Shown here in pieces: positions 8,905-35,436 of a stretch of DNA of 64,000 nucleotides. A program made the translations under genes and the position numbers. Location: NCBI GenBank assembly GCA_019057385.1, contig JAHQJS010000005.1, positions 105,481-169,480 on the forward strand, in the 5' to 3' direction. The notes beneath the pieces were generated by a model. The model saw nothing but the letters and a program-made list of their open reading frames with translations. It ran no database searches and was not told the origin of the DNA. The stretch comes from Candidatus Borrarchaeum weybense (GTDB lineage Archaea > Asgardarchaeota > Sifarchaeia > Borrarchaeales > Borrarchaeaceae). Within the stretch, counting starts at the first letter, position 1; each line of letters begins with the position of its first letter.

Positions 8905-9489
8905 TCATACTATTTTGACTGTTCTAAATGCTTTTCTCATTGACTTAATGCTTTTCCGCGCGATTGATTCAGGATAGAATCCTAGAACCGCCTGATTTAG
9001 TGCTTCTAGGGATACTTCTCCGCTTATTCTGCAGAAAGCACCTAAAATTCCTATGTAATTATTACCGCCATAATTTTGATTTGTTAGGCTTTCATCTATT
9101 TCATTCATTGAAACTTTGTCAACATCTACTGTTGCTGTGGAGAATCCTATGCCGAAGAGTTCTATTAACTCGTATGGGGAATATGATGAATTGACAAGGA
9201 GAATGCCTGACCTTTTTAATCCCTCTGTAACGTCCAATATTTTCAAAAACGAATCATCCAGTACTATGGTGTAATTTGGGCAGCAGATCTGTGGATAAGT
9301 AGATAAAAGTTTCTTGCTAATTCGAATGGCAACTTTTAGAATCACTTCTGGTGTTGTGGTTTTAGGTTGAAACACTTGGGAACACTTATTCCTATAAGCT
9401 ATTGCCTCAGCAAGGATCTCTGCTAATGTAACTACATTCATGTCTCCTCGACCGATTAAGAGAATTTCTTTGATTTTATAAAATGACAT
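8905..9489 (-). CDS. PorG-like 2-oxoacid:ferredoxin oxidoreductase gamma-domain protein
   Basis: A 194-residue protein matching the gamma domain of pyruvate/2-oxoacid:ferredoxin oxidoreductases: the KEILLIGRGDMNVVTLAEIL start, a SGILLVNSS strand, and GILGAFCRISGEVSLEALNQ near the end. The family signature GRGGQGVV is changed to GRGDMNVV, so the phosphate-binding glycine loop is damaged. Alpha, beta and delta subunits are absent nearby. This argues for an orphan paralogue with a new role rather than a working oxidoreductase subunit. An internal CSQVF and ICCP suggest possible metal or disulfide sites. Confidence 0.75.
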   Translation of the reverse strand: MSFYKIKEILLIGRGDMNVVTLAEILAEAIAYRNKCSQVFQPKTTTPEVILKVAIRISKKLLSTYPQICCPNYTIVLDDSFLKILDVTEGLKRSGILLVNSSYSPYELIELFGIGFSTATVDVDKVSMNEIDESLTNQNYGGNNYIGILGAFCRISGEVSLEALNQAVLGFYPESIARKSIKSMRKAFRTVKIV

Positions 9490-9723
9490 GAGGGTACAAC
9501 CTTTCTTAGAATAAATTGAATCCTGTGTTTTGCTCCTTTTTATCGCATACTTATACTTTGAAATTAAAATTTAGACACTTTTTAATGGATATTTTTGTCT
9601 TAAGAACGCAGATTCTAGTAAAAACATTTGAATAGCGATTTAAAATTAGATCAAATCTTAAAACTTTTTAAGTAATAATAATTGACTTTGTAAATAGCAA
9701 ATTTTTTCATGGAGGAAAAATTT

Positions 9724-10128
9724 ATGCAATTCTCTCAGTTCTCTATAGCATTCCTGATTGACTTTATTGTGTTTGTAGCTATTGTGGCAGTTTCTGTAGC
9801 CATAACGTGCTGGCTTTGGGGCTATTCGAGATACAAATTTGCTTGGGGGTCAAGTATCGTTACTGGAATTGTAGCCGCTGTCGTATGGATTATATTTAGA
9901 ATGTTACCGCTCGGTCGTTATACCTTGGCTATTGCATTTGTTGCAGTCTTTGTAGTGATTCTTCTTGCACTTCGTCACTTTTGGCCTAAATTTTCTGAAT
10001 GGCCAACAGCGTTTCTCGGTACGCTGGTTTGTATCGTTATAGTCATTGTCATTTGGCTGGTAATTTCATTTATCATTGCGGGGCTGGGTTTGATAGCAGG
10101 ATATCTGCCCCCACTGAGTATATTCTAA
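9724..10128 (+). CDS. Small multi-pass membrane protein
   Basis: A 134-residue protein with about four hydrophobic helices (IDFIVFVAIVAVSVAITCWL; IVTGIVAAVVWIIF; LAIAFVAVFVVILLAL; LVCIVIVIVIWLVISFIIAG). The start is ATG 9724, with GGAGG at 9711-9715; an ATG at 9709 lies over that ribosome binding site and is rejected. No family is recognised. It is transcribed alone. Confidence 0.7.
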   Translation: MQFSQFSIAFLIDFIVFVAIVAVSVAITCWLWGYSRYKFAWGSSIVTGIVAAVVWIIFRMLPLGRYTLAIAFVAVFVVILLALRHFWPKFSEWPTAFLGTLVCIVIVIVIWLVISFIIAGLGLIAGYLPPLSIF

Positions 10129-10294
10129 CACCAGAATCTAAAAAATTCTTTTCTTTTTTTTTAAGACGGTCATATGAGTTTTTTGAGAAGCTAAAATGAA
10201 CTAAGAGATAATAAAATTCAAGACAACGAATGAAGAGCTGAAATAGATTATTATAAAAAAAAGGCGAAAAAGAGAAAAAATGGATCGGGATAGA

Positions 10295-10618
10295 CTATGT
10301 AACTTGTGCAATTATTGCAAGAATAGCGCCTATTATAACGAGTAATCCCCCGAGACCAAGCACAATTATACCAAAGATTAGGGCAAGTATTATGTATACC
10401 CACTCATCTAACTGATCTGCAACGCGGAGAACAATAATTATTATTCCGATAATTATTGATATAGCCGCTGCAATTAAGCCACCAAGAGCACCTAGCGAAC
10501 TTGGAACACCAAGTCCGATTCCCACGAAACTCAACGCTCCTTGGACAATCATAAGGATTGCACCGACAATCACTAGTATCCATGCCGCTAATAAAATACC
10601 ACCAGACGGTCTAGCCAT
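10295..10618 (-). CDS. Small glycine-rich membrane protein
   Basis: A 107-residue protein with three to four hydrophobic segments: ILLAAWILVIVGAILMIVQG, LIAAAISIIIGIIIIVL, and YIILALIFGIIVLGLGG followed by LVIIGAILAIIA. The N-terminus MARPSGG is short and cytoplasmic. A GGTGAT site precedes ATG 10618. Similar tiny hydrophobic proteins are common in archaea; the function is unknown. Confidence 0.65.
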   Translation of the reverse strand: MARPSGGILLAAWILVIVGAILMIVQGALSFVGIGLGVPSSLGALGGLIAAAISIIIGIIIIVLRVADQLDEWVYIILALIFGIIVLGLGGLLVIIGAILAIIAQVT

Positions 10619-10860
10619 ACAATCACCATTTCAATATCTTATTTCAGGTTAGGATGAACCCGATTTCCTAGTATATAACTTGTTCGCATTCAAGCTTGTA
10701 GAGAACCATGGACTTAAACAAATATCATAGAAGAAATCAACTTCAAGAGAATCAAATAATAACTATTTGAACACTATCGTTTTCTAGATCGAATAAGTGC
10801 CAATAACAAAGAATAAGGATTCTCTAAAATTATATAGAAAAAAAGGAAAAAATAATAGGA

Positions 10861-12219
10861 TTATACTTTTGGCAAGATTTCGAGCGATTTATCGATTTGT
10901 TCCTGTGGCATTTCATAGTCAACAAGGTTTCCAGCGAGATATTCTTCATATCCTTTTAAATCAAAATGACCGTGTCCGCTGTAATTAAAAGCAATCACTT
11001 TTTCTTCACCAGTTTTTTTACATTTTTGTGCTTCTTTGATCACTGCAACGATAGCATGATTGGTTTCTGGCGCTGGAACGATCCCTTCTGTCTTTGCAAA
11101 GATCACTCCTGCTTCAAAGGTTTCTATTTGATGGTATGCAACGGACTCCAAGATACCTTCTTTTTGCAGTAGACATAAACTGGGGGCGTCTCCGTGGTAT
11201 CTTAATCCTCCAGAATGAATTGGTGGTGGGACAAACTCGTGCCCAAGAGTGTACATTTTCACTATAGGAGCTAACTTACCAGTATCTCCGTAATCGTAGG
11301 CATAAGGTGCTCTTGTCAATGTAGGAACCGCCTTCGGCTCAACAGCAATAAATCGGATATCTTTTCCTTTCAATTTGTCTGGAACAAACGGATAAAAGAA
11401 CCCTGCAAAATTACTGCCGCCTCCAACGCAGCCAAGCATCATATCAGGATATTCCCCAATCTCTTCAAACTGTTTTTTAACCTCCTGACCTACAATTGTT
11501 TGATGTAGCAGGACGTGATTGAGCACGCTTCCTAGACTGTACTTAATTTTATCGTCGTTTAGAGCATCCTCCACAGCTTCAGATATTGCTAAACCAAGGC
11601 TTCCAGGATGGTCAGGATTTTCCTTTAAAACACTTCGTCCGACCTCTGTATTATTAGACGGACTTCGGAAAACTTCGCTGCCATAAGTCTGCATTAATAC
11701 GCGTCTATACGGTTTCTGGTCGTAACTGACACCAACCATATATACACGGCATTTTATGTCAAAAAGGGCACATGCGAGGGAGAGCGCACTTCCCCATTGA
11801 CCTGCACCTGTTTCAGTTGTAATTTGTTCTACACCTTCTTTCATTGCAAAATACGCTTGGGCGATAGCTGTGTTGGGCTTATGACTTCCCGTAGGGCTGA
11901 GATCCTCTCGCTTATAGTAGATCTTAGCTGGCGTATCCAAATACTCCTCAAGCCGTTTTGCCCGATATAGTGGGCTTGGTCTACCTAATCGCCTGTAAGC
12001 CTCTTGTAACTCTTCAGGAATAGGAATGTATCTTTCTGGGGACATCTCCTGTTGTAGAAGTGCAACAGGGAACAAAGGCATTAAATCAGGAGGACCACAA
12101 GGTTCTTTCGTTACAGGGTGTAACGGAGGAGGGAGAGGGGCTGGTAGGTCGGCTAATACATTATACCATTGAGTTGGTAACTCATCAAGGTTTAAGACAA
12201 CTTTTACACCATCATACAT
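10861..12219 (-). CDS. trpB: Tryptophan synthase beta chain, TrpB2 type
   Basis: A PLP-dependent enzyme of about 452 residues that condenses indole with serine. The N-terminal region with [20 protein letters not shown] and the insertion [20 protein letters not shown] are typical of the TrpB2 subgroup, which usually works without TrpA. The PLP lysine is in GSHKPNTA and the phosphate loop is [20 protein letters not shown] is the active-site segment. No other trp gene is nearby, as is usual for trpB2. ATG 12219 is preceded by GAGGTGAT at proper spacing; a TTG at 12225 is less likely. Confidence 0.93.
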
Positions 12220-12472
12220 TTTCAATCACCTCAAATTTTTTAGATTTCTATTTTTATTTTTCAAAAAAGTTGGAAACGAGGGGGTATCAATAGCTGTTGA
12301 AATAGTGGGCTACTGCCACCGCCAAGAATGCCAGGGATGCCAAGAAAAGTTTGAAAAGCTCAAAGCTAAGTCAATTAAAAATTCAGGAGTAAAATCTGTT
12401 GGAGTTTTATAAAAACCTTTTTCCGGGCAGGGTGGTTTAGCTTCAAGACTGAGAGAAAAGAAAAGACATTTT

Positions 12473-12508
12473 GTTAAAGCAAATCCCATTGGCGCAATCA
12501 AACCACCT
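12473..12508. repeat. 36-37 bp repeat, copy 1
   Basis: The sequence runs GTTAAAGCAAATCCCATTGG, then CGCAATCAAACCACCT. The second copy at 14193-14229 differs at a few positions, with one inserted base. The two copies lie on the same side of, and near, copies A and C of the longer structured repeat (gaps of about 50 and 11 bp). Length and GTT start are CRISPR-repeat-like, but only two copies exist. Confidence 0.65.
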
Positions 12509-12558
12509 AATCTGCCTATTTCTTTAGGCTTGTTATTTAAATCTTTCTCTGTTTTATT

Positions 12559-12703
12559 ACATTTTTCGTCCCCTGCGAGTCATCCATTCCCAACAATTGA
12601 GGCGTCGGACCTCTGAATTGGTTCAGTCTCATGCACAAGAACGTGTCCCACGTGATATACGAGGAACATACCGCCTTGTAACTCATGTATTCTCTTTCAA
12701 AGA
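12559..12703. repeat. Structured 145-bp repeat, copy A
   Basis: Nearly identical over about 145 bp to copy B (13970-14114), and over about 90 bp to copy C (14241-14330). It contains a conserved hairpin, CAATTGAGG, loop CGTCGGA, CCTC, a two-base bulge and AATTG (about 12595-12620). A second hairpin is ACGTG TCC CACGT. The difference between copies within the first hairpin falls in the bulge (TG here, TA in B and C), as expected if RNA structure is selected. It lies downstream of the Cas6-like/HD gene and its coupled small ORF. Confidence 0.8.
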
Positions 12704-12871
12704 TTCTATATAAACACCGCGATTCTGCTAAACCAACTTTTTCTTACCACTTTTCGATCCTGAAAGCAAAGCAGAGCTGAGTTTTCTACAGCTTATTTTT
12801 ATCCCTCATTAAGTTGCTTCCTGAAAAAACGAATTTTTACTGCCACTCCTCTCGAAAACAATTTAACGTTG

Positions 12872-13054
12872 TCACTTCTGTCGATTTTGCATCGCTCCCC
12901 ACCTTGAAGATTTCTTCCTGTTCGTCAAATTTAACTCATGATGTTCCGCTAGGAGCCGATACAAGTTGTAACGTGGCAATAAAAAGTTGCATTCGAGGCA
13001 ACAAAATGTTGTTTTAACAGATTCAATACAATGATCCATTCTTGTCATGTTCAC
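12872..13054 (-). CDS. Small Cys/His protein coupled to the Cas6-like/HD gene
   Basis: A 60-residue frame whose GTG start overlaps the TGA stop of the upstream gene (GTGA overlap), a typical translational-coupling arrangement. It contains TTFCCLECNFLLPRYNLYRL followed by LAEHHELNL, an imperfect CxxC...HH zinc-finger-like pattern, and a basic tail. If real it is the last gene of the Cas-like operon. The overlap and metal-ligand pattern support it; the lack of an ATG and the small size argue for caution. Confidence 0.4.
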   Translation of the reverse strand: MNMTRMDHCIESVKTTFCCLECNFLLPRYNLYRLLAEHHELNLTNRKKSSRWGAMQNRQK

Positions 13055-13863
13055 AAACCACTATTCAAGTCGTCAAGATAGAGATTTACCATTAATAAGA
13101 GATGATTTTTCAAAGACGAAAACCCAAATTTTAACGCTTCGTTGATCTTATCAAGTGCTTGACATTTTCGAATAAAAGTATAAAGGGCATACGGGGAATA
13201 TTGGCACTTTTCTATCTCTCTTTTTAATGCATCGAAATTTATCTTTTCTAGTTCAGTCACACGATAACGCGTGAACGCAGACCATCTAAATTTTCGAGAA
13301 ATCATTGCAGAAAGTCTATCATAATACTGAAGAAGAGGGAGAAGAGGCAATTCAGCCTCATCTGTATCATAGTTGTGGTGATTTTCCACAAACTTACGGA
13401 CTTCTTCATCAAGTATATTAACTTCAGAGTAGATTTTGCTCTGATGTCGATTAGTGTGTACGAAATCATGTAGTAACATAGCTATAACTAATGTTTCTTG
13501 CACGTTGGAGAGTTTAGGGAGTTTTTTACGGATCTTAATTGTTCTTGAAATATAGAGCGGATTTTTTTTGAGTTTACTAACAGAAGTCCATAAGATTTGC
13601 CCCATCCCTTCACATGTATAACTCCCAACACTGTCAATGGCGAGCGCTTCTTCAAGTTTATATTCTGGAACGATGAACTCAACATTTCCATACCATGCCC
13701 TAAAGGTCATAGGCGCACGTCTTTGCCCTACAGTCAATTTTCCGAATACCCTAGGACGACCATTTATGGTCATCGCTCCAATATCGGCAATTCCAAAATG
13801 CCTGCGCCTTGAAACGATAGGAGTTTTTGTATAACCCATTAATTTAAAGTATTTTTGTGACAT
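13051..13863 (-). CDS. Cas6-like RAMP domain fused to HD phosphohydrolase domain
   Basis: 270 residues. Residues 1-95 resemble the C-terminal half of Cas6-type RAMP proteins: PMTFRAWYGNVEFIVPEYKL, then EEALAIDSVG and the glycine-rich GSYTCEGMGQI (80-90). Residues about 115-200 look like an HD domain, with H132-D133 in LLHDFVH, H140, H162-H163 in ENHHN, and D182 in YYDRL. HD nucleases are known in Cas3 and Cas10, whereas Cas6 processes crRNA; I know of no described Cas6-HD fusion. The start is ATG 13863 behind AGAGGGGA. It is preceded by a promoter-like block (13915-13965) shared with the Cas7-like gene. The domain calls rest on motif reading; the HD call is the firmer of the two. Confidence 0.6.
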   Translation of the reverse strand: MSQKYFKLMGYTKTPIVSRRRHFGIADIGAMTINGRPRVFGKLTVGQRRAPMTFRAWYGNVEFIVPEYKLEEALAIDSVGSYTCEGMGQILWTSVSKLKKNPLYISRTIKIRKKLPKLSNVQETLVIAMLLHDFVHTNRHQSKIYSEVNILDEEVRKFVENHHNYDTDEAELPLLPLLQYYDRLSAMISRKFRWSAFTRYRVTELEKINFDALKREIEKCQYSPYALYTFIRKCQALDKINEALKFGFSSLKNHLLLMVNLYLDDLNSGL

Positions 13864-13914
13864 TTAATCCCCTCTTTTTAGGTCTTATCTCCTCTTGAAA
13901 CAAAAGAGAGGAGA

Positions 13915-13965
13915 TACAAACCTTGCCAAAGTAAACGCTTTTGCAACTTTTATTAGTAAAGTGGG
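13915..13965 (-). promoter_or_regulatory. Shared upstream block, copy P1
   Basis: TACAAACCTTGCCAAAGTAA, then ACGCTTTTGCAACTTTTATT and AGTAAAGTGGG (plus-strand reading) closely match 15244-15295. Each copy lies 35-105 bases upstream of a Cas-like gene start. Between this block and the Cas6-like/HD gene is a leader hairpin, TCTCCTCTT ... AGAGAGGAGA (13889-13914). It probably carries the common promoter or regulator site of the two genes. Confidence 0.5.
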
Positions 13966-13969
13966 TATG

Positions 13970-14114
13970 ACATTTATCGTTCCTTGCGAGTCATCCTTCC
14001 CCAACAATTGAGGCGTCGGACCTCTAAATTGGTTCAGTCTCATGCACAAGAACGTGTCCCACGTGATATACGAGGAACATACCGCCTTGTAACTCATGCA
14101 TTCTCTTCCAAAGA
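13970..14114. repeat. Structured 145-bp repeat, copy B
   Basis: Matches copy A over its full length with few changes (TTCCTTGCGAG instead of CCCCTGCGAG near the left end). Both hairpins are intact: AACAATTGAGG / CCTC(TA)AATTGGTT and ACGTG/CACGT. It lies directly upstream of block P1 and the Cas6-like/HD gene. Minus-strand reading frames through this copy are unlike each other and look incidental. Confidence 0.8.
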
Positions 14115-14240
14115 GATACTATTATTAATATAGTACACGTACAGGCGTCAAGAAGGAAGGAGAGGATTAACCTCTCCCTAAAGTAGGACGGTGTTAAAGC
14201 AACATCCGTTGGCGCAATCAAAACCGCCTGTATTTTGATG
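14115..14240. other. Spacer between structured repeats, with hairpin
   Basis: Contains GGAGAGG ATTAA CCTCTCC (about 14159-14177), a perfect 7-bp stem, and the second 36-37 bp repeat (14193-14229). No coding frame is convincing. Confidence 0.5.
14193..14229. repeat. 36-37 bp repeat, copy 2
   Basis: The sequence runs GTTAAAGCAACATCCGTTGG, then CGCAATCAAAACCGCCT. It matches 12473-12508 with three or four differences and ends 11 bp before structured repeat C. Confidence 0.65.
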
Positions 14241-14330
14241 ACATTTTTCGTCCCCTGCGAGTCATCCTTCCCCAACAATTGAGGCGTCGGACCTCTAAAT
14301 TGGTTCAGTCTCATGCACATGAACGTATCA
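14241..14330. repeat. Structured repeat, truncated copy C
   Basis: The first 80-90 bp match copies A and B, including the bulged CAATTGAGG hairpin. The match stops at GAACGT. Where A and B have ACGTG/CACGT, this copy continues into a different perfect stem, TATCACT ... AGTGATA (14326-14349). It lies about 40 bp beyond the stop of the Cas7-like gene and could also terminate that transcript. Confidence 0.75.
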
Positions 14331-14388
14331 CTCACAAAAGTAAGTGATAGTCCGTTATGAGATGAGAAAAAAGAATGAGATGGAGTTA

Positions 14389-15207
14389 TCATGCAGTCAC
14401 CGTTTCTTCGTTTTGTTCGTTTTGTTCGCTAAAATTCAAAGAATCCCTCCAATCCTCGATATTACTGAGAGAGATAGGTTTTTCAGTTGCTTTTTCGACA
14501 ATTTTATAATTTCCTTTGTTATCTTCCGCGACATTGCGAGTAGTTTCGATCTTCTGGAGGTCGAAATTGAAAATCGTGACGCGACCATAACCACTCGCTC
14601 GTCCTGCGCCCAGAATCTCAACATATAATAGCGATTCCATGAGAAACTTGATTTCTGTATTCGTTAATTTGGTCACATCAATGTAAAAACTGAAATAGCC
14701 GCTGAAATAACTCTCCCTAAAATCTTGGATAGCTATACCATCATAGGTGAGCGCAATTCTGTTTTCACTAGCGATATGGACTTTTTGGACTGGAACTTCA
14801 GTTAAGTATTCTTTATGTTTGATTGAGGCAATAGGATCTGCTAACACATTAATAGAAGATTTCTCGCCAAATGCACCAAAGATTTTTCGCAGAATGCAGG
14901 GAGGATCACATGTACCAAGTGCATGAAAACCAGAAGGGATGAGTCCAGTGCCATCTTTGAATGTCTCCTTTTCACTGGTATGACATACCTCGATACCGCA
15001 CTCCTGAGCGAGCGCCATACAGGCATGTCTTAGCATCCCTCGAATACCTTTGATATAATAGAATTTAGTGTTGAAGGTTTTGTCTCCATTCACATACGGA
15101 AGTTCTCCTAACAAAAGCATGGTCGAATTTTTTTGAATCGAGGCATTAAGAGGCTTAGCAATAGGGGTAAAAGCATGAACCACTAACTGTTTTTTGATTT
15201 TTCTCAT
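14389..15207 (-). CDS. RAMP-family Cas7-like protein
   Basis: 272 residues. YIKGIRGMLRHACMALAQEC (51-70) resembles the G-S-x-R-G-x-x-R segment of Cas7/Csm3-type RAMPs. GTCDPPC with KIFGAFGEKSSINV (98-121) resembles the cysteine/LFG region. The C-terminal glycine loop LGAGRASGYGRV (199-210) is a textbook RAMP motif. Cas7 proteins form the crRNA-binding backbone of class 1 effectors, and the sequence seems nearest to Csm3- or Csf2-type members. The last 50 residues are polar and low in complexity. No Cas5, Cas8, Cas10 or Cas11 is adjacent. A promoter-like block shared with the Cas6-like/HD gene lies upstream. Confidence 0.72.
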   Translation of the reverse strand: MRKIKKQLVVHAFTPIAKPLNASIQKNSTMLLLGELPYVNGDKTFNTKFYYIKGIRGMLRHACMALAQECGIEVCHTSEKETFKDGTGLIPSGFHALGTCDPPCILRKIFGAFGEKSSINVLADPIASIKHKEYLTEVPVQKVHIASENRIALTYDGIAIQDFRESYFSGYFSFYIDVTKLTNTEIKFLMESLLYVEILGAGRASGYGRVTIFNFDLQKIETTRNVAEDNKGNYKIVEKATEKPISLSNIEDWRDSLNFSEQNEQNEETVTA

Positions 15208-15243
15208 GTTTCTAACCTCAATTATAGTTAGTACAAGTACCTA

Positions 15244-15295
15244 TATAAACCTTGCTCAAAATAAACACTTTTCCAACTTTTATTAGTAAATTGGG
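15244..15295 (-). promoter_or_regulatory. Shared upstream block, copy P2
   Basis: TATAAACCTTGCTCAAAATA, then AACACTTTTCCAACTTTTAT and TAGTAAATTGGGG match P1 (13915-13965) at about four of five positions. In the minus direction a TTTATATA box lies about 40 bases before the Cas7-like ATG. Confidence 0.5.
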
Positions 15296-15300
15296 GAATT

Positions 15301-15387
15301 AATTGACTTCCTTCTGAGAAAATAAGTATTTTAAACGGCTTTTAGCAAAAAAATCATTAAAAAAGTAGAACCCCCTTTATAAATAAC
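15301..15387 (+). repeat. 87-bp direct repeat, left copy
   Basis: Starts AATTGACTTCCTTCTGAG, has GGCTTTTAGCAAAAAAATCA in the middle and ends AGTAGAACCCCCTTTATAAA plus TAAC. The same order of words in the same orientation recurs at 20655-20741, at roughly 75-80 percent identity by eye. The pair brackets the helicase-Cas1 and TPR-LRR genes. It could be a duplicated leader, a recombination site or an integration scar. Confidence 0.65.
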
Positions 15388-15553
15388 AACGTATTGAGAC
15401 GATTTGTATTATTGTCTTTTTAAAAGAATAGTTGAACAATTTAACAAAATGAAACATTCTTGAAGATTCAAAAGGAATAAATTTATGGTCTCAACTGAAC
15501 TAACACACGTTTTTAAAAGAATATGTATACTATAACTGATTCTTAATTAAGTA

Positions 15554-18500
15554 TTAGGGTAAAAGATCCTTTACAGCAACTGGAGGACCTTTTTTCGGTG
15601 GTTTATAGATGCCTTCCAGATGTTGAAACCGCTCATACATCAAGTGGAGAGTTTCCTTATCTGGAGCGTAGATAAAGGGGACAAAGCGCTTTTTTTCCAA
15701 CAAAAAACCCTTGAGTTGTAGTGCGCACCGCCTTATAGCTTCCTTTACTGTCATATATTCTTCTAGATAGTATACCTTTTGAGCGAGTATGTTGTTAACC
15801 AATCTCTCAACTTTGTAGTGTCCATTCCAGTTAAGATGATAGAATCGTTCACGCTCTAGTGTTTTACGTCGAATGAAATCAGTTTTCGCAAATTTATCAT
15901 GTATACATGCAAAGATGAAGGCGAACCTGAACAGGGGAAGAAACACCTCTCGGAAGTCAACAACAGTGCCAAGAAAAGATCTTTGTTTTTTCTTATAATG
16001 CAATATCAGTTCGTTGGGTACCCAGGAGAACCCTGCCTCAGCGAGTGCTTTTCGACAGTAAAAGTTAAGGTGTCGATAGACAGCATTGAGTGCAGCACTA
16101 AAGGGAGTTCGCGCCTTTGCTTCCCCCAGAAGCACCACTGTGGCAATATAGCGGTCGAGGGTACGACTGATGATTTCAAAATAACTGCCCTGAAGCAAAT
16201 GCTTGGGAACCTCCCAGGCAATGCTTTCCACTACGCCTTCAAGACCGCGAAGGTTGTCAATATTGCCCCGCCAATAGAGAAACGTATACGCCACGCGATC
16301 CAGTAGTTGGGATAAGAATTCCTGTGCCTCTGCAGGAGATAATAATCCCTCTTTTTCAAAATGGAGAATTGCATTGGCGAGTCCCATATTTTTACTCATC
16401 ACCAGCAACCTCGCTAATAACTTGCCTCGTTCCGTCTCTCTGAGTTGCTGGGCGGCGTGTTTCAGTTCATCGGCTAATTGTTGTTTCTCGGGTGTCAGTG
16501 TATGCTCTACAAAGAATCTGCCTTCGGGCGAATTAATATCAATGAGTTTTTTACCATAGTTCTTACGAACCTGTTGCGTAACTTCTCCACCCTCGATGAT
16601 GATGTGACGGATAGCACCGATTAAATATCGCTGTGTTGTTTTCCCGTCCTTTAAGGAATGAGTAAATCGTTTTTTCTTAATATCAAGCTGTTCACCGCAC
16701 TTGACACGGATGATTCGTTTTGGTCGTCGAATGTAAACCCTTGTTTTTTTAACCCGCGGGACATAATTTCCAGCCTTGCCTAAAAGCAATTCCAACCCTT
16801 TTAACATCAAACCTCGGCGGCCTGGTTTCACCACTAGGTCACCTTTCATGGTTAAATAATAGCGGGAATTGCATTCAGGACAGACGGTGTATTCGTTATA
16901 GCGTGACGGCAGTTCCACTGTACCGTCGGAGTTGCAGAAGTAGCATGGAGTATCATCAAGTGTTTCTTGTAAGACACGAATTGTGCGCTTTTTTAACTTC
17001 CGCGCTTTCGTATGATATTCGCAGGCACCCATCTTTGGTGCGACATAAGACTTTCTTGCTCGCCTTCCAACTTTTGTGTTATACTTACGATTCAACACGC
17101 AAATATGTGCACGTTTCGATCTGCGACGGTCCTTCATGGAGTTTATCCGAAAGAAGCCACATGAGCCACAGGTGAGGCGCAGATGTTCAGGAAGACTCAC
17201 ATTCACATCTGCCACATAGATTTTGGGGCGACCTCGTAACTGCCCTTGAGAGATAAACTGGATTTTTCCCTGGATTCCTAACCGCTTGACATGTTTAACT
17301 ACCGTGGTGTAGTGAACTGGTCTTTTATATTGCTTACGAACTTTTGTCGTAATTTGTTTATAAGAAATAAGTTTATACTGTTTAATAAAGGTGTAGATTG
17401 CTTCCTGAAGTCCTGGATATGGTTTCGGTCTATGTTTTGGATACCAGCGTCTCCTTCTGCCTTTGTTCCCTCTTTCAACTTCAGGCTCTTTGTATTCAGG
17501 ATTTAGTTTTGAGGTAAGTTCTTTAGCAACCCTTGCCGCCCTCGGGTCGCTGCGCCCCAGATAGTCATAACTTGCTTCTGCGATCCATGACGCCGTCTTT
17601 CTATGTGCTTCTGCATCACCCGGTCTTATGTTTACCCGAGTTGCCGCTTCTGTGACTGAAGAACCCTGACTGAGTAACCATACGAAAGAGGTATATTGTT
17701 GGGTGGTGTATCGTGTGGTGCTGCTCACTTCATGCATGCTTCGCCCGATTAGTGTAATCACGTGCCGGGAGAATTCCCGTTCTGAGGAGCAGTGATGTGT
17801 GGCAAAAAAATTCTTGATCCTGATGGCGGTTTTAGTCGGCAGTAAAAATTGGCTGGCCCAGCGTCCTTTGGCTGTTGCACTAAACTTTCCACCATTTCTT
17901 TTGATAAAACCTTCCTTGATAAGTGTGTGAAGGATTCCCTCTCTTTTTTTCTTCGGTTCATCCTGCTTAGGTCGAGCTAACAGTTTCTCTCTTAGTTGTT
18001 GTGTAAAGTCTTTCAACTGGTCGTGGGTGAATGGTGTCAACAGTAAGCGAAGCTCTCCATTTTTGATTCCGCGTGTAGTGGTGTTCTTCTTGACCCACAT
18101 GAAGAATTTTCTCGTTACGCGTTTCAAGTCGAATGGGAGAGAGCCTTCGTGCGTTTCGCGCAATAAGGAGAGTAAATGAAGTTCGTTATTGAGCCAGCAA
18201 AGCTCCTCCTCATGAGTCAAGAGTGCGGTATTCATTAGTTCGGACCAATTCTGTAGCAACGCTTTGTGTTGATGCCAGAAGTAATGTCTTTCAAGTTTGA
18301 GGAGCAATTGTTTCGTGGATACCGAGCCTCTAGCTATCAGGGTGAGTACAATATCTGCCAAAGAAGAACGAGCTTGGCTTACTATACGATGTTCTTTGAC
18401 TATCAATTGTCCTTCAACGATTTGAATATCCTTTTGCTTCAAAATCTCTTGGTCGTCCCCCACGAAGATCAGATCGGCATAGCCCACCCGATGATGGCGC

Positions 18501-19645
18501 GGTCGTGCCGCCCTGCCGCTCAATTGTATCAACAGTTGAGAGCTGAACATTCCTGCATCGGCAATTATCACCCTTTTGATCGGAAAGTCCACCCCCTCTC
18601 CGTATTGAGTCGTTGATAAAAAGACCTGAAATTCACCCTTCTTAAGTTTTCTCATAGCTTTTTGTTGTTTCTCTTTACTGAGCCCAGCATGGCTGTAGCC
18701 AACGGTTAGATTGAGCCCAAAACTCTTTAGAAAGGTCTGCAATTCTTCAGCGCGTTGTTCAACCTGATTTCGTGTGTAGCAAAAGATATGCACGATTTTA
18801 GTCCGCTGATCATCGCCATATGAGTGTAGTTCAAAGGTCTTTTTGATCAAGCGAGCGAACAGAAAGCGCTTTTTTCGTTCGATCTGCTCTATTGTGCTGC
18901 CTGAAACTCCAAAAGACGATACAATAAGTTTCGACCGCCGTTCTTTGGTATGGATAAGTTGAGCATCGAGCCAGCTTGCCAGTTCCTCAGCATTCCCCAA
19001 AGTAGCCGAGAGATAGATGATGTGAGGACGAGGTCGCAACCACGCTTTCGCATTGACAATCGCGGTTTCTAGACACGTACCCCGCCCTTTGTTACCCAGA
19101 TTATGCAGTTCATCGACTACAATTAATCCTATCCTGTCTAAAAACGGATACTCGAAATGTTTGGCTAGCAGCCCATTGAAGGATTCGTAGGTGATGATGA
19201 GGATATCCGCAGTTTCAAGCTCTTCAGGAGACGGTCGGTTATCTCCGCTGACCCGGAGGATGGTGCAGATGTCGTGATACCACTCTTTGAACCTGTCATA
19301 CATCTGATCGATCAGCCGTTTGGTCGGCTCAAGGATCACACAGCGCATCCCTTTTCCAAGGATGCGGGTGGACACTATTTGGGCGATCAAGGTTTTTCCA
19401 GAAGCGGTGGGAGTGTATAACACTTTGTCATGTCTTTGCTTACCAGAAAAGCATGCCTCCCATTGAAAGTCATAGAGAAGTTTAATGTCAGCCTGTTCCA
19501 ATTGTTGACGTATAAATTCGTAGTTTAACCCTCTTTTCGTCATTGTAAGGAACTGTCCCCTCAATCCCTGTGTCTCACTTATGATGGTTGAAAAGTTCTT
19601 TATAAAGAGGGCAAACCTTTGGATCACTGGCTTGATAACTGTCAC
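15554..19645 (-). CDS. Ski2-like helicase fused to Cas1-like integrase domain
   Basis: 1363 residues. Residues 55-460 are a superfamily 2 helicase of Ski2/Hel308 type: TPTASGKT (78-85), DELH (178-181), SAT (213-215), TTQYGEGVDFP (345-355) and QLSGRAARPR (374-383). Residues 745-800 look like winged helix. Cysteines 826, 829, 849 and 875, then 901, 904, 922 and 925, form two zinc-binding patterns. Residues about 1070-1340 match Cas1: GKLLARLLVMSKNMGLANAI, NIDNLRGLEGVVESIAW, FSAALNAVYRHLNFYCRKAL, then ILHY and TVVDFREVFLPL. Candidate metal ligands are E1136, H1216, D1230 and E1233. The start is uncertain: GTG 19645 lies too close to a TATA box (about 19656-19663) to be on that transcript, and ATG 19543 would remove only 34 residues. 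Confidence 0.8.
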   Translation of the reverse strand: MTVIKPVIQRFALFIKNFSTIISETQGLRGQFLTMTKRGLNYEFIRQQLEQADIKLLYDFQWEACFSGKQRHDKVLYTPTASGKTLIAQIVSTRILGKGMRCVILEPTKRLIDQMYDRFKEWYHDICTILRVSGDNRPSPEELETADILIITYESFNGLLAKHFEYPFLDRIGLIVVDELHNLGNKGRGTCLETAIVNAKAWLRPRPHIIYLSATLGNAEELASWLDAQLIHTKERRSKLIVSSFGVSGSTIEQIERKKRFLFARLIKKTFELHSYGDDQRTKIVHIFCYTRNQVEQRAEELQTFLKSFGLNLTVGYSHAGLSKEKQQKAMRKLKKGEFQVFLSTTQYGEGVDFPIKRVIIADAGMFSSQLLIQLSGRAARPRHHRVGYADLIFVGDDQEILKQKDIQIVEGQLIVKEHRIVSQARSSLADIVLTLIARGSVSTKQLLLKLERHYFWHQHKALLQNWSELMNTALLTHEEELCWLNNELHLLSLLRETHEGSLPFDLKRVTRKFFMWVKKNTTTRGIKNGELRLLLTPFTHDQLKDFTQQLREKLLARPKQDEPKKKREGILHTLIKEGFIKRNGGKFSATAKGRWASQFLLPTKTAIRIKNFFATHHCSSEREFSRHVITLIGRSMHEVSSTTRYTTQQYTSFVWLLSQGSSVTEAATRVNIRPGDAEAHRKTASWIAEASYDYLGRSDPRAARVAKELTSKLNPEYKEPEVERGNKGRRRRWYPKHRPKPYPGLQEAIYTFIKQYKLISYKQITTKVRKQYKRPVHYTTVVKHVKRLGIQGKIQFISQGQLRGRPKIYVADVNVSLPEHLRLTCGSCGFFRINSMKDRRRSKRAHICVLNRKYNTKVGRRARKSYVAPKMGACEYHTKARKLKKRTIRVLQETLDDTPCYFCNSDGTVELPSRYNEYTVCPECNSRYYLTMKGDLVVKPGRRGLMLKGLELLLGKAGNYVPRVKKTRVYIRRPKRIIRVKCGEQLDIKKKRFTHSLKDGKTTQRYLIGAIRHIIIEGGEVTQQVRKNYGKKLIDINSPEGRFFVEHTLTPEKQQLADELKHAAQQLRETERGKLLARLLVMSKNMGLANAILHFEKEGLLSPAEAQEFLSQLLDRVAYTFLYWRGNIDNLRGLEGVVESIAWEVPKHLLQGSYFEIISRTLDRYIATVVLLGEAKARTPFSAALNAVYRHLNFYCRKALAEAGFSWVPNELILHYKKKQRSFLGTVVDFREVFLPLFRFAFIFACIHDKFAKTDFIRRKTLERERFYHLNWNGHYKVERLVNNILAQKVYYLEEYMTVKEAIRRCALQLKGFLLEKKRFVPFIYAPDKETLHLMYERFQHLEGIYKPPKKGPPVAVKDLLP

Positions 19646-19696
19646 AAAATCCCCTCTTTATAAATTAATTATAACCTATTGACAGTAGTGGCAACA

Positions 19697-20644
19697 ATGT
19701 CTTTCGAAGAACACCTTAAGCAAGGAAATGAGTTTTATGAACAGAAACAATACCGAAGGGCGTTAAAACATCTCACAAAGGCTGCAAAATTAAAACCAAA
19801 AGACTATCAACCTTGGCAGAAATGTGGAGATATTTATTTTACTTTGCACATCTATCAGAAGGCAATCAAATGTTGGAAAAAGGCGTTTGCGAAAAAACCT
19901 GACGAAATGTCACCCTTGGTCGGCATAGCTAATTCATACGGATTCTTGGGCGAATACGAAAAAGCCATCAAATACTGTCAAAAGATATTGAATACACAAC
20001 CAAACTTTCCTTTAATTAAACTCTTGATGAGCAATATAAAAGATGTACAAGAACATTCACCTCTTACCGATGAAGAGGTAGCAAAAATAAAAGAAGCAGA
20101 TTCAAAAAAGGTCATCACAAGTGTCGTAATCCGTGGTATAGACTATTATGTTATTAATAACACATTAAAACTTCGCGATCTAAATATCAAAGATATTAAA
20201 CACATCAAAGGATTGGAAAATCTTACCAATCTCCAAGAACTTGATCTAAGCGGGAATAAAATATCAGTAATTGAGGGATTAGACACACTTTGCAATCTTC
20301 AAGAACTTAATTTAAGTGCGAATAAAATTACTATGATACAAGGTTTAGATACCCTTACCAAGTTACAAGTTTTAGAACTTTACGACAACCAGATCAATAG
20401 GATAACTGGACTGGATAACCTTACGCAATTGAAAAAGTTATATCTTAATGGGAACTCGATAGAAACAATTGACGGAGTGGAACAACTCACGAATTTGGAA
20501 GTTTTAAGCCTTGCAGATAACCCTCTATGTGAGGAAGATCGACGCGTGTACGAACGAAGTGTGACAGCTATGGATGCCCAGTATTGTGTAAAATATTGCC
20601 AGAAAAAGATGTCGATATTTTCTACCAAGAGTCCTAATAACTAA
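19697..20644 (+). CDS. TPR and leucine-rich repeat protein
   Basis: About 315 residues. The N-terminal third holds roughly three TPR units (KQGNEFYEQKQYRRALKHLT; KCGDIYFTLHIYQKAIKCWK; IANSYGFLGEYEKAIKYCQ). After a linker the protein has five LRRs of the SDS22 type, with repeated GLDTLTKLQVLELYDNQI-like units, and an LRR-cap-like end (NPLCEEDRRVY). Both repeats bind other proteins, so an adaptor or sensor role is likely. ATG 19697 lies about 27 bases after a TTATAA box, suggesting a leaderless transcript. It diverges from the helicase-Cas1 gene across about 50 bp, so the two may share control. Such TPR/LRR proteins are frequent in Asgard genomes. Confidence 0.85.
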   Translation: MSFEEHLKQGNEFYEQKQYRRALKHLTKAAKLKPKDYQPWQKCGDIYFTLHIYQKAIKCWKKAFAKKPDEMSPLVGIANSYGFLGEYEKAIKYCQKILNTQPNFPLIKLLMSNIKDVQEHSPLTDEEVAKIKEADSKKVITSVVIRGIDYYVINNTLKLRDLNIKDIKHIKGLENLTNLQELDLSGNKISVIEGLDTLCNLQELNLSANKITMIQGLDTLTKLQVLELYDNQINRITGLDNLTQLKKLYLNGNSIETIDGVEQLTNLEVLSLADNPLCEEDRRVYERSVTAMDAQYCVKYCQKKMSIFSTKSPNN

Positions 20645-21132
20645 ATAGAGAATCAATAGACTTCCTTTTATGATATAAAGTGATTAAAAAGGCTTTTAGT
20701 TGAAAAATCAAAGAAAGAGTAGAACCCTCTTTGTAAATAATATGAAGACTAAGAATGTAAGTTGATGAGATCTGAAAATATTTATTTTGTTGATTTACAG
20801 ATCTCTTCAAATTAATTAGTCATAATTAACTTTTCAGAAAATTTATGTAGGAGAATCCATATTACATTTTAGTTAATCATAAGAAGCGATATTAAGAAGT
20901 TACTATATGAAAGATTATTCTGATTTAAATTTTACTTTCACCCATCACACTCTAACTCTTATTTGGGTTACATTAAATGTATTAATTATGAAGTTTAGTT
21001 GTGCATTTTTGTCAAAATAAAAATGATAATAATGCAAGTATGTGCTATCAAATAAGATGAGGGGCAGAGTTTACTCTTTTTAATGGGGAAATTCAATCTT
21101 CATCTTAACAATGATTTTAGAGAGTGATAAAC
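20645..21132. other. AT-rich non-coding region after the TPR-LRR gene
   Basis: Contains the right copy of the 87 bp direct repeat (20655-20741) and a hairpin, GAGATCTG (20767-20774) paired perfectly with CAGATCTC (20798-20805), possibly a terminator. A 37-codon frame at 20906 lacks a ribosome binding site and is not called. Confidence 0.5.
20655..20741 (+). repeat. 87-bp direct repeat, right copy
   Basis: Starts AATAGACTTCCTTTTATG, has GGCTTTTAGTTGAAAAATCA in the middle and ends AGTAGAACCCTCTTTGTAAA plus TAAT. It has the same orientation as 15301-15387. It begins 10 bases after the stop of the TPR-LRR gene. Confidence 0.65.
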
Positions 21133-21828
21133 ATGGGAGCGATCGAAGGGTTTGTAGTAGGTATTGCCTCTAATGTAGCTTATGATTTAATCAAAAAGCT
21201 TTCAAGAATTGAAATATTCAAGCAGATACCAATAAGAACTAGTTTCAGTCTTGTAATTAATTTTAGAGAAGGTATCGAGGTTATTGAAATTGATAATAAT
21301 TTGACTAAGACATTTCGAGAAGAGTTTGGAATCAAAAAAGATCAGAAGAAAGTACCATTTATTGAAATTGATAATCTAAAATTATATGTACTTATAGACT
21401 ACCATTATCTTGAAGATAGCGAAAAAATCATTGATGCTTTGAATGATATCTTTGAAATAAGAGAGGAAGATGCAGTTCAACCAGAATTCATAGATGCATT
21501 AACCATACAAATTTTTCCCGATGATACGAAAGAATTAGATGACATATTAATGGTTATGGATGTTTTGAAAGATATAAAGAGACTTATTCAACGTGATTAC
21601 AATATTGAAAAAGATTTGATCTGGCTACGCTTGGATGTTGATGATGAAAAATCAGCGATCTTAATACAAAAGAAACTTGTTGAAAGTTTTCCCGAATTAA
21701 TTATTATTAAAAATAAAGATATGCAGAATAATGTTTTTTTGAAAATAAAAGATACTAGTGACTTAGAATTAAAACAAATAATAGATGTTCTAAAATCTAA
21801 CAGAATCAGAAAAATACTACACATTTGA
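21133..21828 (+). CDS. Hypothetical protein, first of a pair
   Basis: About 231 residues from ATG 21133, with GAGTGAT upstream; a GTG at 21124 is the alternative. The N-terminus MGAIEGFVVGIASNVAYDLI is a hydrophobic, membrane- or core-seeking helix. The rest alternates acidic helices and isoleucine-rich strands (DALTIQIFPDD; LIWLRLDVDDEKSAILIQKK). No family is recognised. It sits nine bases before the next gene and beyond the right direct repeat of the Cas-like island, so it may be an island passenger. The short hydrophobic N-terminus resembles that of some defence-island effector proteins, which is only a hint. Confidence 0.65.
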   Translation: MGAIEGFVVGIASNVAYDLIKKLSRIEIFKQIPIRTSFSLVINFREGIEVIEIDNNLTKTFREEFGIKKDQKKVPFIEIDNLKLYVLIDYHYLEDSEKIIDALNDIFEIREEDAVQPEFIDALTIQIFPDDTKELDDILMVMDVLKDIKRLIQRDYNIEKDLIWLRLDVDDEKSAILIQKKLVESFPELIIIKNKDMQNNVFLKIKDTSDLELKQIIDVLKSNRIRKILHI

Positions 21829-21837
21829 GATGATTTA

Positions 21838-22551
21838 ATGGTTTTTGTCTGCCGAGTTTTGAAAATTATGCCAAGATATGATGATCAAGTCAAGCAATTA
21901 TTGAAAAAACCATCTGAAATAGTATTTGATACAATAAGACAAAGTGAACTCATTGAATTAAAGCTATACATAGATGAACCTGCTGAAGAGAACGATTTTG
22001 GCTTTTTAATAACAGCCTATGTTGATATACCTCAAACATTATGGAGTAAAGATACAGGTACTTATTCTACGAAAATCACAAAAAAACTAGAAGTTCAAAT
22101 ATTTACTACTCCTGAAGTTGGAAACTATTTAGTCGTATTTGCATCAAATATTCTTGTAAAGGAATTTGTAAATTCTGTAACTAAGATATTAAATACAGTT
22201 GAATGGTTTAAGCCAGTATTAATAGATACTGACCGAAAAGAGGAAGAGATAAGAAATGAGTTAGGCGATTTTAGGCGTGTTTACGTGAAAGATATGGATG
22301 ATGATCTTGTAAAAACAGCAACAATGGGTGGTCTAAGACTAGAATTGTCGTCAGATTATGCTAGATATATTAGAGATTATGGGGGTAGGCTAAGTGCAGT
22401 TTCGCTTATTTATGAAGGTAATTGGATGATGATAACGTTTAGAGGAATTTTTTATTCACCTAGTAAAGATGCCGAAAGTAGGAAAGTTGAAATAATTCAC
22501 AACTTACTGAAACTTCTAAAAGAAATTGATGCGCTAGATACATCATCTTAA
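21838..22551 (+). CDS. Hypothetical protein, second of a pair
   Basis: A 237-residue soluble protein in the same operon as the preceding gene. It starts VFVCRVLKIMPRYDDQVKQL; features include a beta-rich middle (FGFLITAYVDIPQTLW; KLEVQIFTTPEVGNYLVVFA) and a C-terminal region GGLRLELSSDYARYIRDYGG ending in a helix. I recognise no family and see no catalytic signature. Codon use is AT-rich like its partner and unlike the helicase-Cas1 gene. Confidence 0.65.
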   Translation: MVFVCRVLKIMPRYDDQVKQLLKKPSEIVFDTIRQSELIELKLYIDEPAEENDFGFLITAYVDIPQTLWSKDTGTYSTKITKKLEVQIFTTPEVGNYLVVFASNILVKEFVNSVTKILNTVEWFKPVLIDTDRKEEEIRNELGDFRRVYVKDMDDDLVKTATMGGLRLELSSDYARYIRDYGGRLSAVSLIYEGNWMMITFRGIFYSPSKDAESRKVEIIHNLLKLLKEIDALDTSS

Positions 22552-23242
22552 GAATTTGCGGATTTTTAATTCTTTTCTTCACTCATCATTACCTAATATA
22601 GGAAAATACTCTTTCATCCGTTCTTTCAGTAATTCCTCCTGCAATGTTTTTTAGCATAAGACGTTTTATTTCCTCTTATTCTTATGCATGCTCCAATGCC
22701 CACCCTAGTTTCAGATAAACTGTTTCTGGGAGCATGTCTTCTAGGTGATCACGCTTAAGAATTACAAGTAGGGCAACATCCAAGCAATTAAAAAGCAGTA
22801 ATAAAATGTGGATCATAGTTTAAACTCAAGCTAAATTCCTCTTTAATTAAAACCGTCATTGCTAGCTAACAAAGGGTTCTGTTCATGTAAATCTTTATTT
22901 TATAAAAAACATCAAAAAATAAAGTTTTCTCTGATTTTTTCATTACGATTAATGTTGTAAATTCATTTTCAAATTAACAAATTAACTAAAATTAATTTTA
23001 ATTAAGTCAAAAGTCGAAACAACGTAGGTACGTAATCAATTACCTGTTTTAAGTTTTTTTAGAGCATCAGCAGTATTAGCTTTTTGTTTATAAACTTAAC
23101 GTTTTTGTAAGAATTGCCTACTAACTCAGATAATGCAGAAAAAATAAGCAGGCAATGAATGCAAAAGAAAAATGTTCGATAGCCTTCTTGTAAATGAAGA
23201 CAAAAGAGATGTATATGATATATTGAGGGGCAGTCTAAAAAA
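22552..23242. other. Long intergenic region with a gene relic
   Basis: About 690 bases. Apart from the gatD relic at 22589-22786 it is AT-rich. Inside the relic there is an 8-bp inverted repeat, CATGCTCC / GGAGCATG. Nothing else is seen, and no further A-ATPase subunit follows the A subunit gene here. Confidence 0.6.
22589..22786 (-). pseudogene. gatD: Relic of gatD (Glu-tRNA(Gln) amidotransferase subunit D), 3' end
   Basis: One minus-strand frame reads DHLEDMLPETVYLKLGWALE then HA, two in-frame stops (TAA GAA TAA), then EEIKRLMLKNIAGGITERTD and a stop. This is the characteristic C-terminus of the asparaginase-like GatD subunit (DMLPE, VKL-WVL, ML-NIAGEITER). With two stops and no upstream domain it is a decayed fragment. 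A functional gatDE pair, if present, is elsewhere in the genome. Confidence 0.7.
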
Positions 23243-25006
23243 CTATCCTATCAATGTTGCGAATTGTTCATCGATCTCCTTTGAAAGTTCATCACATGTC
23301 GCGTCTATTTTTTCGGGATCAATTATTTTGAGACGAGAGATGTTTTCGTAGACGCCCAGTTTAAGGATGTCCGCTATAGATGCACCACTTTCACTTGCTG
23401 CTCTCATCTTTTGATGTGTCTGCATGATTATTCCAAGCATTCGCTTTGCCTTATCTAGGGAACAGTAAGAATCGACTGGATGATATGCATGTTGCATCAA
23501 GTAGTCCTCGCGAATGATACGCGCGGCCTCAAGCACTACTCTTTCAATCTCAGGTAACGCATCAGGACCTACTAATTGTACGATTTCCTTGAGTTCTTTC
23601 TCCTTTTGTAAAAGCGACATAGCTTCAATTCTCAAATCTCTCCAATCCGCGCCTAAATTGTCTTTATACCATTCCTCAAGTGTTTCTTGATACAATGAAT
23701 AACTAGTTAACCAATCAATAGCTGGGAAATGCCTTCGTGATGCTAAGTCTTTAGATAACGCCCAGAAGACCTTTACAACACGTAATGTGTTTTGCGTAAC
23801 TGGTTCAGAAAAGTCACCGCCAGGTGGGCTAACTGCGCCAACAACGCTTACAGATCCATAACGTTCGTCAGAACCTAGAGTTTTAACTCTTCCTGCGCGT
23901 TCATAAAATTCAGCGATGCGGGATGCAAGATATGCTGGATAGCCTTCTTCTCCAGGCATTTCCTCAAGCCGTCCAGAGATCTCGCGAAGCGCTTCGGCCC
24001 ATCTTGATGTTGAATCTGCCATGATAGAAACATCATAACCCATATCACGGAAATATTCGGCAAGTGTAATGCCCGTGTAAATACTCGCCTCTCGTGCAGC
24101 GACTGGCATATTTGAAGTATTGGCAATAAGGACAGTTCTTTTCATTAAAGGTTCGCCAGATCGAGGATCCTCTAGTTCTGGAAATCTTTCTAATACTTCC
24201 GTCATTTCATTGCCACGTTCACCACAGCCAACATAGACAACAACTTGTGTGTCAGCCCACTGAGCAAGTTGGTGTTGCATGACTGTTTTTCCGGTCCCAA
24301 ACCCCCCAGGAATGGCGCCCGTGCCTCCCTTGGACATGGGGAAGAAAGTATCAAAAATCCGTTGTCCAGTAAATAGAGGAACTATTGCGGGAATGTTTTC
24401 TTTGATTGGTCGAGGGACACGAACAGGCCATTTCTGCATCATAGTCAAATCTTGACGTCCTTTATCCGTTTCAACTACTGCAATGACATCTTCAATTGTG
24501 TAGTCTCCTGCTGGAACAATTTCAACAACCTTTCCAGAGGTTCGTGGTGGAACCATAATTCTGTGCTCGACTAAAGTCGTTTCAGGCACTGTTCCAAGAA
24601 TGTCTCCACCAGTAACATTATCACCAACGCTCAAGCGAGGCGTAAATGACCATTTCTTTGTCCGATCAAGAGGGCTCGCGACAATTCCTCTTGTAATGAA
24701 ATCACCAGATAATTCTTTTAAGGAAGGTAAGGGACGCTCAATGCCATCGTAGATCTGGCTGATCAATCCCGGTCCTAATTCAACGCTTAAAGCGCCACCG
24801 GTAGCTATAACTTTTTCTGTAGGTCGAATTCCGGCAGTTTCTTCATATACTTGGATACTACACACGTCGCCTTCTAAGGCGATAACTTCTCCGATAAGTT
24901 CTTCACTTCCTACACGACATACTTCGTACATTTGTACGCCTGTCATGTTTTTAGCTTGAATTAACGAACCTGCAACTCGTGTAATTTCGCCTTCTATTGT
25001 TGCCAT
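23243..25006 (-). CDS. atpA: A/V-type ATP synthase catalytic subunit A
   Basis: 587 residues, full length for the archaeal catalytic subunit. Walker A is GGFGTGKT (234-241), followed by GCGERGNEM, the Walker B region [20 protein letters not shown] and the [20 protein letters not shown] segment. The long non-homologous region at about 110-200 that separates A from B subunits is present. It hydrolyses or makes ATP in the soluble A3B3 head. It is the last gene of an H-F-A set on the minus strand; the usual next gene, subunit B, is missing. Confidence 0.97.
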
Positions 25007-33872: not shown

Positions 33873-34056
33873 TTTTACTGAAGACTCCTTAGAGAACATT
33901 CAACAAGAGCTCTCTGAAACTTCTTTTTCATCCTTTAAAATCTTTCTGTAACTCACTTTGCGGTAGAATAATCATCATTTCGTAATTGTACGGGTTGGAT
34001 TCTCTACTTCCTTTGTTGGCAAGAGTTTAAAAAGGGTAGAAAGCACTAAACCATCT

Positions 34057-35415: not shown

Positions 35416-35436
35416 TTATAAAATGGTCTTCCTTTA

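Follow-up and report, generated by a model that had tools for sequence, protein, structure and literature searches.

The Asgard RAMP (ARAMP) systems, reportedly named by Makarova et al. in 2020 in CRISPR J, probably include the gene set described here, which lies in a stretch of 64,000 nucleotides (nt) of Candidatus Borrarchaeum weybense DNA (the window). As far as the accessible parts of two sources describe them, ARAMP systems have Asgard hosts, lack an array of clustered regularly interspaced short palindromic repeats (CRISPR) and possess Cas5/Cas7-type parts distantly related to HRAMP, most of them with a distinct Cas1; their mechanism is termed enigmatic (PMC8730458, PMC12669027). The window locus has a Cas7-type RAMP protein, a Cas1 and an Asgard host (Borrarchaeum, with Heimdallarchaeota among the other records), and it differs from those descriptions by a repeat-encoded RNA (R), guide matches, element-free sites and recoded target genes, which the same parts of the two sources do not mention. 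We consider it likely that the locus is one copy of a multi-copy mobile element that spreads by RNA-guided homing and unites minimal class 1 CRISPR-type proteins with an RNA of predicted structure; the novelty is probably the working principle rather than the protein set.

HRAMP of Haloarchaea also lacks an array and is a class 1 derivative in reduced form that has homologues of Cas5 and Cas7, but the portions of its description at hand give it additional nucleases and a predicted defense role, whereas here an HD domain is fused to a RAMP-like part and the system has a 3' RNA and is mobile. OMEGA elements carry IscB or TnpB and an omega-RNA whose guide derives from the flanking target. Mobility, a structured RNA at the right end, a guide taken from the flank and homing or drive (for TnpB gene drive see PMC11870625, in the part available) are shared features, and at the sequence level the 3' continuation of the end RNA appears to be the target here too. 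Unlike OMEGA, the present element has RAMPs and an HD domain in place of RuvC/HNH nucleases, and some copies have a separate guide, a terminator-like hairpin and a recoded target; no IscB, IsrB or TnpB nuclease was found in a Pfam scan of six open reading frames (ORFs) or an NCBIfam scan of three. Casposons use Cas1 as a predicted integrase, and like them the element carries a Cas1; unlike them, it showed neither terminal inverted repeats nor short target duplications when six sites in its own genome were inspected by eye, and Pfam gave no family B DNA polymerase match among the six ORFs of the window copy. Intronless homing by the free-standing endonucleases SegF, SegG and MobE of phage T4 also places an element beside its target gene, where it is copied by repair of the cut allele (PMC2988022, in the part available), and insertions here appear to sit at the recognition site of element-free alleles, but targeting would be by RNA instead of protein. 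VIPR is another small RAMP-based system with its own RNA that also occurs in viruses; according to the accessible part of its description that RNA reads a gapped code, whereas the matches of the present element run without gaps and are linked to the insertion site (PMC13142463). The Cas10 palm/polymerase domain of type III CRISPR-Cas is lacking, since the 270-amino acid (aa) HD protein consists of a RAMP-like domain and HD and leaves no space for a palm domain. Membership in OMEGA, casposons, CRISPR or type III was rejected, each failing on at least one tested feature. The literature searched, all of it open-licence papers, yielded no description of a natural homing element with a recoded copy of the attacked gene and, with most subscription papers outside its coverage, no report of RNA-guided homing by class 1 parts.

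The features on which the argument depends are the following.

12508..23068, no strand: whole insertion of 10.56 kb, missing at this site in the related genome G003
12472..12508, minus strand: target-like sequence in the pre-existing flank, adjoining the insertion junction, matched by the R_b tail
12551..12682, minus strand: R RNA copy R2, towards the element's right end (covariation; covariance model 144.7 bits, R2 being itself part of the underlying alignment)
13051..13863, minus strand: RAMP-like + Cas10-type HD fusion, 270 aa (HD pair invariance, predicted fold)
13962..14093, minus strand: R RNA copy R1', upstream of the HD gene (143.7 bits)
14192..14229, minus strand: guide-like 38 nt after R_b, then a 9-bp hairpin; matches 12508-12472
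14233..14363, minus strand: R RNA copy R_b, after the RAMP gene (131.7 bits)
14389..15207, minus strand: Cas7-fold RAMP, 272 aa (Pfam RAMPs, Foldseek)
15554..19645, minus strand: helicase + helix-turn-helix (HTH)/zinc region + Cas1, 1363 aa (Pfam/NCBIfam, paralogues)

The original prediction, made from the sequence without database searches, had proposed three same-strand genes with helicase-Cas1, RAMP and HD parts, and these were confirmed by Pfam and NCBIfam, an invariant HD pair and predicted folds. Within one 1363-aa ORF, Pfam matched DEAD (2.8e-27), Helicase_C (1.2e-14) and Cas_Cas1 (3.9e-9, residues 984-1261), and NCBIfam matched Hel308-type helicases (2.3e-44); judged by these matches, the protein is a Ski2/Hel308-type helicase joined to Cas1, as had been claimed, and homology suggests a true start near 19543. 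Part of it is homologous to a separate Heimdallarchaeota HTH-Zn protein, cl5 (hhalign probability 98.3), for which Pfam gives no Cas1 match. The profile and structure searches proposed as a check placed the 272-aa ORF above the Pfam cut-off for RAMPs (1.5e-7) with a Foldseek match to Cas7-11 (3.7e-6). For the 270-aa ORF, Pfam HD remained below threshold (0.013); the HD residue pair is kept in 20 of 20 aligned relatives, and the predicted fold resembles the N-terminal part of Csm1/Cas10. The HD half of the supposed Cas6-like/HD fusion stands, as a Cas10-type domain; its RAMP-like domain is probably Cas5-like.

Searches of the genome of origin gave 12 hits for the HD protein, 11 for the RAMP and 21 for the 150-nt repeat, and located helicase-Cas1 at six loci. 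From this genome 15 stretches were extracted, 14 of which contain element copies. RAMP and HD genes are adjacent at ten loci, with the HD gene split in L066; helicase-Cas1 lies upstream of them in six (L058-L063, split in L063); partial copies have one small gene only (L067, L069) or the repeat only (L070, L071). Homology between copies ends sharply, and the gene set is, to judge from these loci, part of a multi-copy mobile element with about a dozen whole or partial copies in its own genome. Other records contributed 28 loci plus one viral locus, and both small genes are adjacent at 19 of these 29. Nine loci, two of them at the start of a contig, have nothing but the HD gene or a fragment of it, and L106 has just R and a short HD fragment. 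The records are labeled Borrarchaeum/Borrarchaeota, Sifarchaeum, Heimdallarchaeota metagenome-assembled genomes, 'archaeon' (L087) and 'Archaeoglobales' (L088). By PHROGs and Pfam, L087 and L112 are tailed-virus contigs with terminase, portal, head or tail genes; the former carries an intact RAMP-HD pair and the latter a remnant (HD gene end and RNA), located at the 3' ends of the terminase and the tail-sheath gene, respectively. Three related viral contigs have no element at the sheath gene, and their homology resumes one base past the shared tail. The overall interpretation in the original prediction, a minimal RNA-guided or repeat-based system, was partly supported: the genes were right, and the mobile element and the covarying RNA were missed.

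At each of the six own-genome sites compared, an element-free allele was present in at least one related genome: the window (G003), L059 (G003, G001), L060 (G003, G001), L065 (G003), L061 (G004, with G003 retaining a piece of R) and L067 (G003, G001, G002). The window junction, G003:C77 8966|8978 = L058 5988|16550, has flanks 94% and 96% identical; this copy is one of the less clean cases. The left junction lies at, or at most ~11 nt from, the 5' start of the match at five of the six sites; L067 is the exception, its left flank ending ~118 nt further back. Insertion points are shared across genomes at Rpb7 (L091/L094), at Snf7 (L090/L103) and in L098/L099, for which shared inheritance is possible.

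The ~150-nt repeat lies 3' of the protein genes. A repeat search spanning 9000-24000 of the window located three copies (12555-12703, 13966-14114 and 14237-14385), in agreement with the predicted interspersed repeats of several kinds; they are not chance, because the genome has 21 matches. No CRISPR array appeared in this search, which returned R copies and short pairs only and was not made with a dedicated array finder. In an alignment of 29 of 30 copies (A2; the degenerate L063 copy at 14221-14350 was excluded), R has 20 pairs with 95.5% of cells paired, and 43 cells changed on both sides compared to 14.0 in shuffles, a value reached by 0 of 500. Helix 1 has ten pairs with compensated changes in eight; the other two helices are nearly invariant and lend no support. 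R is accordingly a covarying RNA with a predicted structure. At the Heimdallarchaeota loci, the HD gene's final ~100 nt together with the ~45 nt behind them resemble a related RNA ending in GG[T/A]GA[T/C]A; of 11 terminal stems, seven were equalled in no more than 14 of 300 shuffles, two others in 17 and 21 shuffles, and two were unremarkable (42 and 258). The viral copies L087 and L112 have a common ~80-nt tail with a stem showing compensation by eye. R copies are at times paired, ~30 to ~380 nt apart, in the manner of a tiny array (L062 near 11923 and 12425, in reverse orientation; L107 4696-4984; window 14093-14233).

The sequence following R falls into two classes. We removed 12 duplicate tails (48 to 36) and left out two R copies without a recognizable end motif (L063 at 14258, L080 at 1310). 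In the site class, homology to the element-free allele begins seven or eight bases past R (L061, L065, L106, L147). Of the 13 hairpin-less R ends examined, nine are placed between -43 and +7 nt relative to a convergent ORF's stop codon; five of the 13 (L061, L065, L106, L087, L112) were compared with element-free or related sequence, and L085 only with L107, itself occupied. In L087 the RNA end provides the terminase stop codon. The Heimdallarchaeota R stops a few bases before the start codons of Snf7 (L090, L103; Pfam 1.2e-13 for L090) and of a zinc-ribbon-like protein (L098, L099), and, in two genomes, adjoins the N-terminal region of Rpb7 (L091, L094; Pfam 7.8e-14 for L091). The R tails of L093, L105 and L111 resemble tRNA gene ends, but ARAGORN detected no tRNA at these places.

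In the guide class (R_b, L059, L060, L063, L064, L067, L070, L084), R is followed by ~30-40 nt and then a hairpin. These hairpins, in 8 of 19 tails, have z values of -1.5 to -4.8 (-3.6 for the 9-bp hairpin behind R_b); among the 11 others only L066 (-2.3) is comparable. The guide-type matches are 30-38 nt long and sense-oriented, end before the hairpin, and concern a gene adjoining the element; in coding matches many differences are synonymous by inspection. In the window, a 31-nt pair joins 14192-14222, directly after an R copy, with 12472-12502 beside the insertion junction, 1.73 kb away, and a sequence similar to 12472..12508 is found in element-free G003. The match starts 6-9 bases past R in 8 of 11 tails (R_b 10-18; window R2 at 50), L062 having been set against another occupied allele, and if the target begins at base 7, a T stands at -1 in seven of nine aligned sites. 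For 26 right-end tails, a cross-locus control compared the score in the 1.2 kb downstream of the tail's own locus with the scores at all other loci, omitting 8 of 34 R copies that have a promoter-like block behind them. Four tails (L059, L060, L063, L067) scored their own downstream sequence above every other locus; L085 did so above 23 of 25, and its orthologue L107 matches L085. On the opposite strand, own scores did not exceed 12.5 (R_b; controls up to 12.0).

Comparison of alleles at individual loci carries the argument for attack on a native gene. At L059, a PRC-barrel gene, the guide agrees with the element-free G003 allele at 31/32 positions and with the resident allele at 26/32; resident and G003 alleles differ at 6/32 bases in the match and 11/241 in the rest of the segment (p 0.008), and the left flank stops at the first base of the match. 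At L067, a dihydroorotate dehydrogenase gene, the guide matches G003 at 36/38 positions, the resident gene start is altered, and the right junction falls within the match. Overall, the guide fits the element-free allele better than the resident one in two of four cases. At L060, an SRP54/FtsY-type GTPase gene, the left flank keeps native codons 1-38 (107/114 identical to G003), which stop where the guide match starts; the functional gene past the element has diverged from G003 in codons 1-38 (72/114) and is 82% identical in codons 39-57 and 77-96% in later stretches. L064 concerns an N6 DNA methylase gene (Pfam 4e-38). Here a stranded N-terminal segment with 42% identity to the functional protein stops ~10-15 bases short of the guide codons (GHFFTPRNVVRF), and the functional gene downstream reads GQFFTPRNVVRM in other codons; the guide match at this locus is at the protein level. 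The segment is probably the native N-terminus. The original 5' end thus appears stranded, with a diverged functional copy after the element, in L060 and probably in L064, a pattern expected of an element that attacks the native gene while supplying a recoded one. Among 14 loci searched, stranded pieces were found only in these two; that of L059 was missed because it is too short.

These observations are consistent with the following mechanism. R and its tail would be transcribed and loaded on Cas7, with the RAMP-HD protein on the scaffold side; the complex would find the element-free allele of the gene beside the element, and the HD domain would cut the DNA. Repair of the cut allele would then copy the element in, as in T4 intronless homing. 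Insertion at the 5' edge of the target would part it from the bases before it and so protect flank-contiguous copies; flank-contiguous copies of TnpB elements are protected in like manner. Where a same-strand gene needs restoration, protection would come from recoding, mismatches sparing the resident allele, and copies located at a convergent gene's stop codon would require no rescue. New insertions would be made by helicase-Cas1, joining the R end to a new target and thereby writing the guide. We regard as evenly balanced the full proposal of a natural cleave-and-rescue homing drive built from class 1 parts: a two-protein (Cas7 + Cas5-Cas10HD) RNA-guided DNA nuclease with its guide in the R tail, aimed at housekeeping and viral targets (SRP54/FtsY-type GTPase, dihydroorotate dehydrogenase, Rpb7, viral terminase), carrying a rewritten 5' end where needed and using Cas1 for guide writing.

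Several points weigh against homing as just described. No R was detected by pattern or covariance model in L068, a divergent pair; no guide match was recognized for the window R2 tail, and no second match was seen for 12 Heimdallarchaeota R tails. The window guide is nearer to the resident sequence than to the element-free allele, the L060 guide fits free and resident alleles equally (28/34 each) with no significant enrichment of differences within the match (p 0.32), and the L085 match extends over 78 nt. Heimdallarchaeota cl5-type proteins lie near RAMP-HD loci alongside a PD-(D/E)XK nuclease and a LAGLIDADG protein. Expression of R, binding and cutting of the target and the part played by Cas1 are deduced from sequence, and the role given to helicase-Cas1 is a guess from family knowledge.

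Nuclease-dead TnpB repressors and type IV systems are precedents for an RNA-guided regulator, in which the complex would bind without cutting, R and its guide would tune the neighboring gene, and mobility would come from Cas1 alone. The matched gene is indeed the element's neighbor, resident targets are still 81-96% identical to the guide, and the tail of an internal R copy resembles a block that lies before the element's own RAMP gene, at 89% over 53 nt for R1' and at 80-94% in seven other copies. We nevertheless find this account unlikely, as the HD pair is invariant in 20/20 relatives, resident alleles have diverged at the target in L059, L060 and L064, guides fit element-free alleles better in two of four cases, and viral copies and stranded gene ends indicate invasion. 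A functional but diverged copy next to a guide directed at the native allele (L060, L064, L059) would also be expected of a toxin-antidote element that kills or cripples cells or viruses with the sensitive allele, the recoded gene being the antidote, and that is not copied by repair. This seems quite improbable to us in view of the insertions at the same point in different genomes (shared inheritance being possible), the viral insertions, which copying into a cut site explains better, and the stop-codon copies, which require no antidote. Least probable, by a little, is that ARAMP is a degenerate or defensive CRISPR derivative, R an unrelated regulatory RNA and the matches scars of an ordinary transposon, given the start of the match 6-9 bases past R in 8/11 tails, its 30-38-nt, sense-oriented, hairpin-ended form in guide-type copies where a scar would run on into the gene, and six sites at which inspection by eye showed neither terminal inverted repeats nor short target duplications.

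RNA-guided homing, if true, would provide a function for ARAMP and a two-protein class 1 RNA-guided nuclease, and in its cleave-and-rescue form a class 1 counterpart of IscB and TnpB. Class 2 effectors descend from mobile-element nucleases, and the accessible part of one account describes the origin of class 1 effectors as murky (PMC6452270). A mobile element pairing Cas7 and a Cas5-HD-like protein with a target-tailed scaffold RNA would make that origin testable and would be a living candidate for class 1 effectors as selfish elements before, or outside, adaptive immunity.

The window copy has three further features.

13927..13965, minus strand: 39-nt block upstream of the HD gene, with a copy at 15257-15295 upstream of the RAMP gene
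19679..20644, plus strand: cargo TPR-leucine-rich-repeat protein (Pfam), within the segment absent from G003
21124..22551, plus strand: cargo, two ORFs (234 and 237 aa), within the segment absent from G003

Upstream blocks shared by the genes, another element of the original prediction, are thus present before both small genes; the 39-nt block may be a shared promoter region or one half of an internal guide-target pair against the element's own promoter. The two cargo ORFs gave nothing above the Pfam cut-off. In Heimdallarchaeota, the RAMP-HD loci L089, L090, L091, L099/L100 and L102 have a common divergent gene set (a relative of the HTH-Zn-Cas1 part, HTH-like unknowns, a PD-(D/E)XK nuclease and a LAGLIDADG-HTH protein), which may be either a second form of the system or a neighboring mobile element. 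A ~43-nt hairpin repeat (TACCTGAAA...TTTCAGGTA) occurs in L061 (1017-1059 and 5518-5565) and L130 (1380-1427), placed towards the left of the L061 insertion and present in G003; it may be an unknown element or a left-end signal. Elsewhere in the window, a HEARO RNA (RF02033, 128.7 bits), a type known from IscB-type OMEGA elements, lies at 35009-35251 on the plus strand, at the end of a glycosyltransferase-like gene; inspection by eye, with no profile scan, showed no HNH nuclease among the four ORFs of at least 100 aa at 33500-36500. The genome of origin also has a canonical Cas1 (E 4e-80) at L072 (G000:C4:145000-164900), and the ORFs around it resemble by eye a class 1 CRISPR-cas operon.

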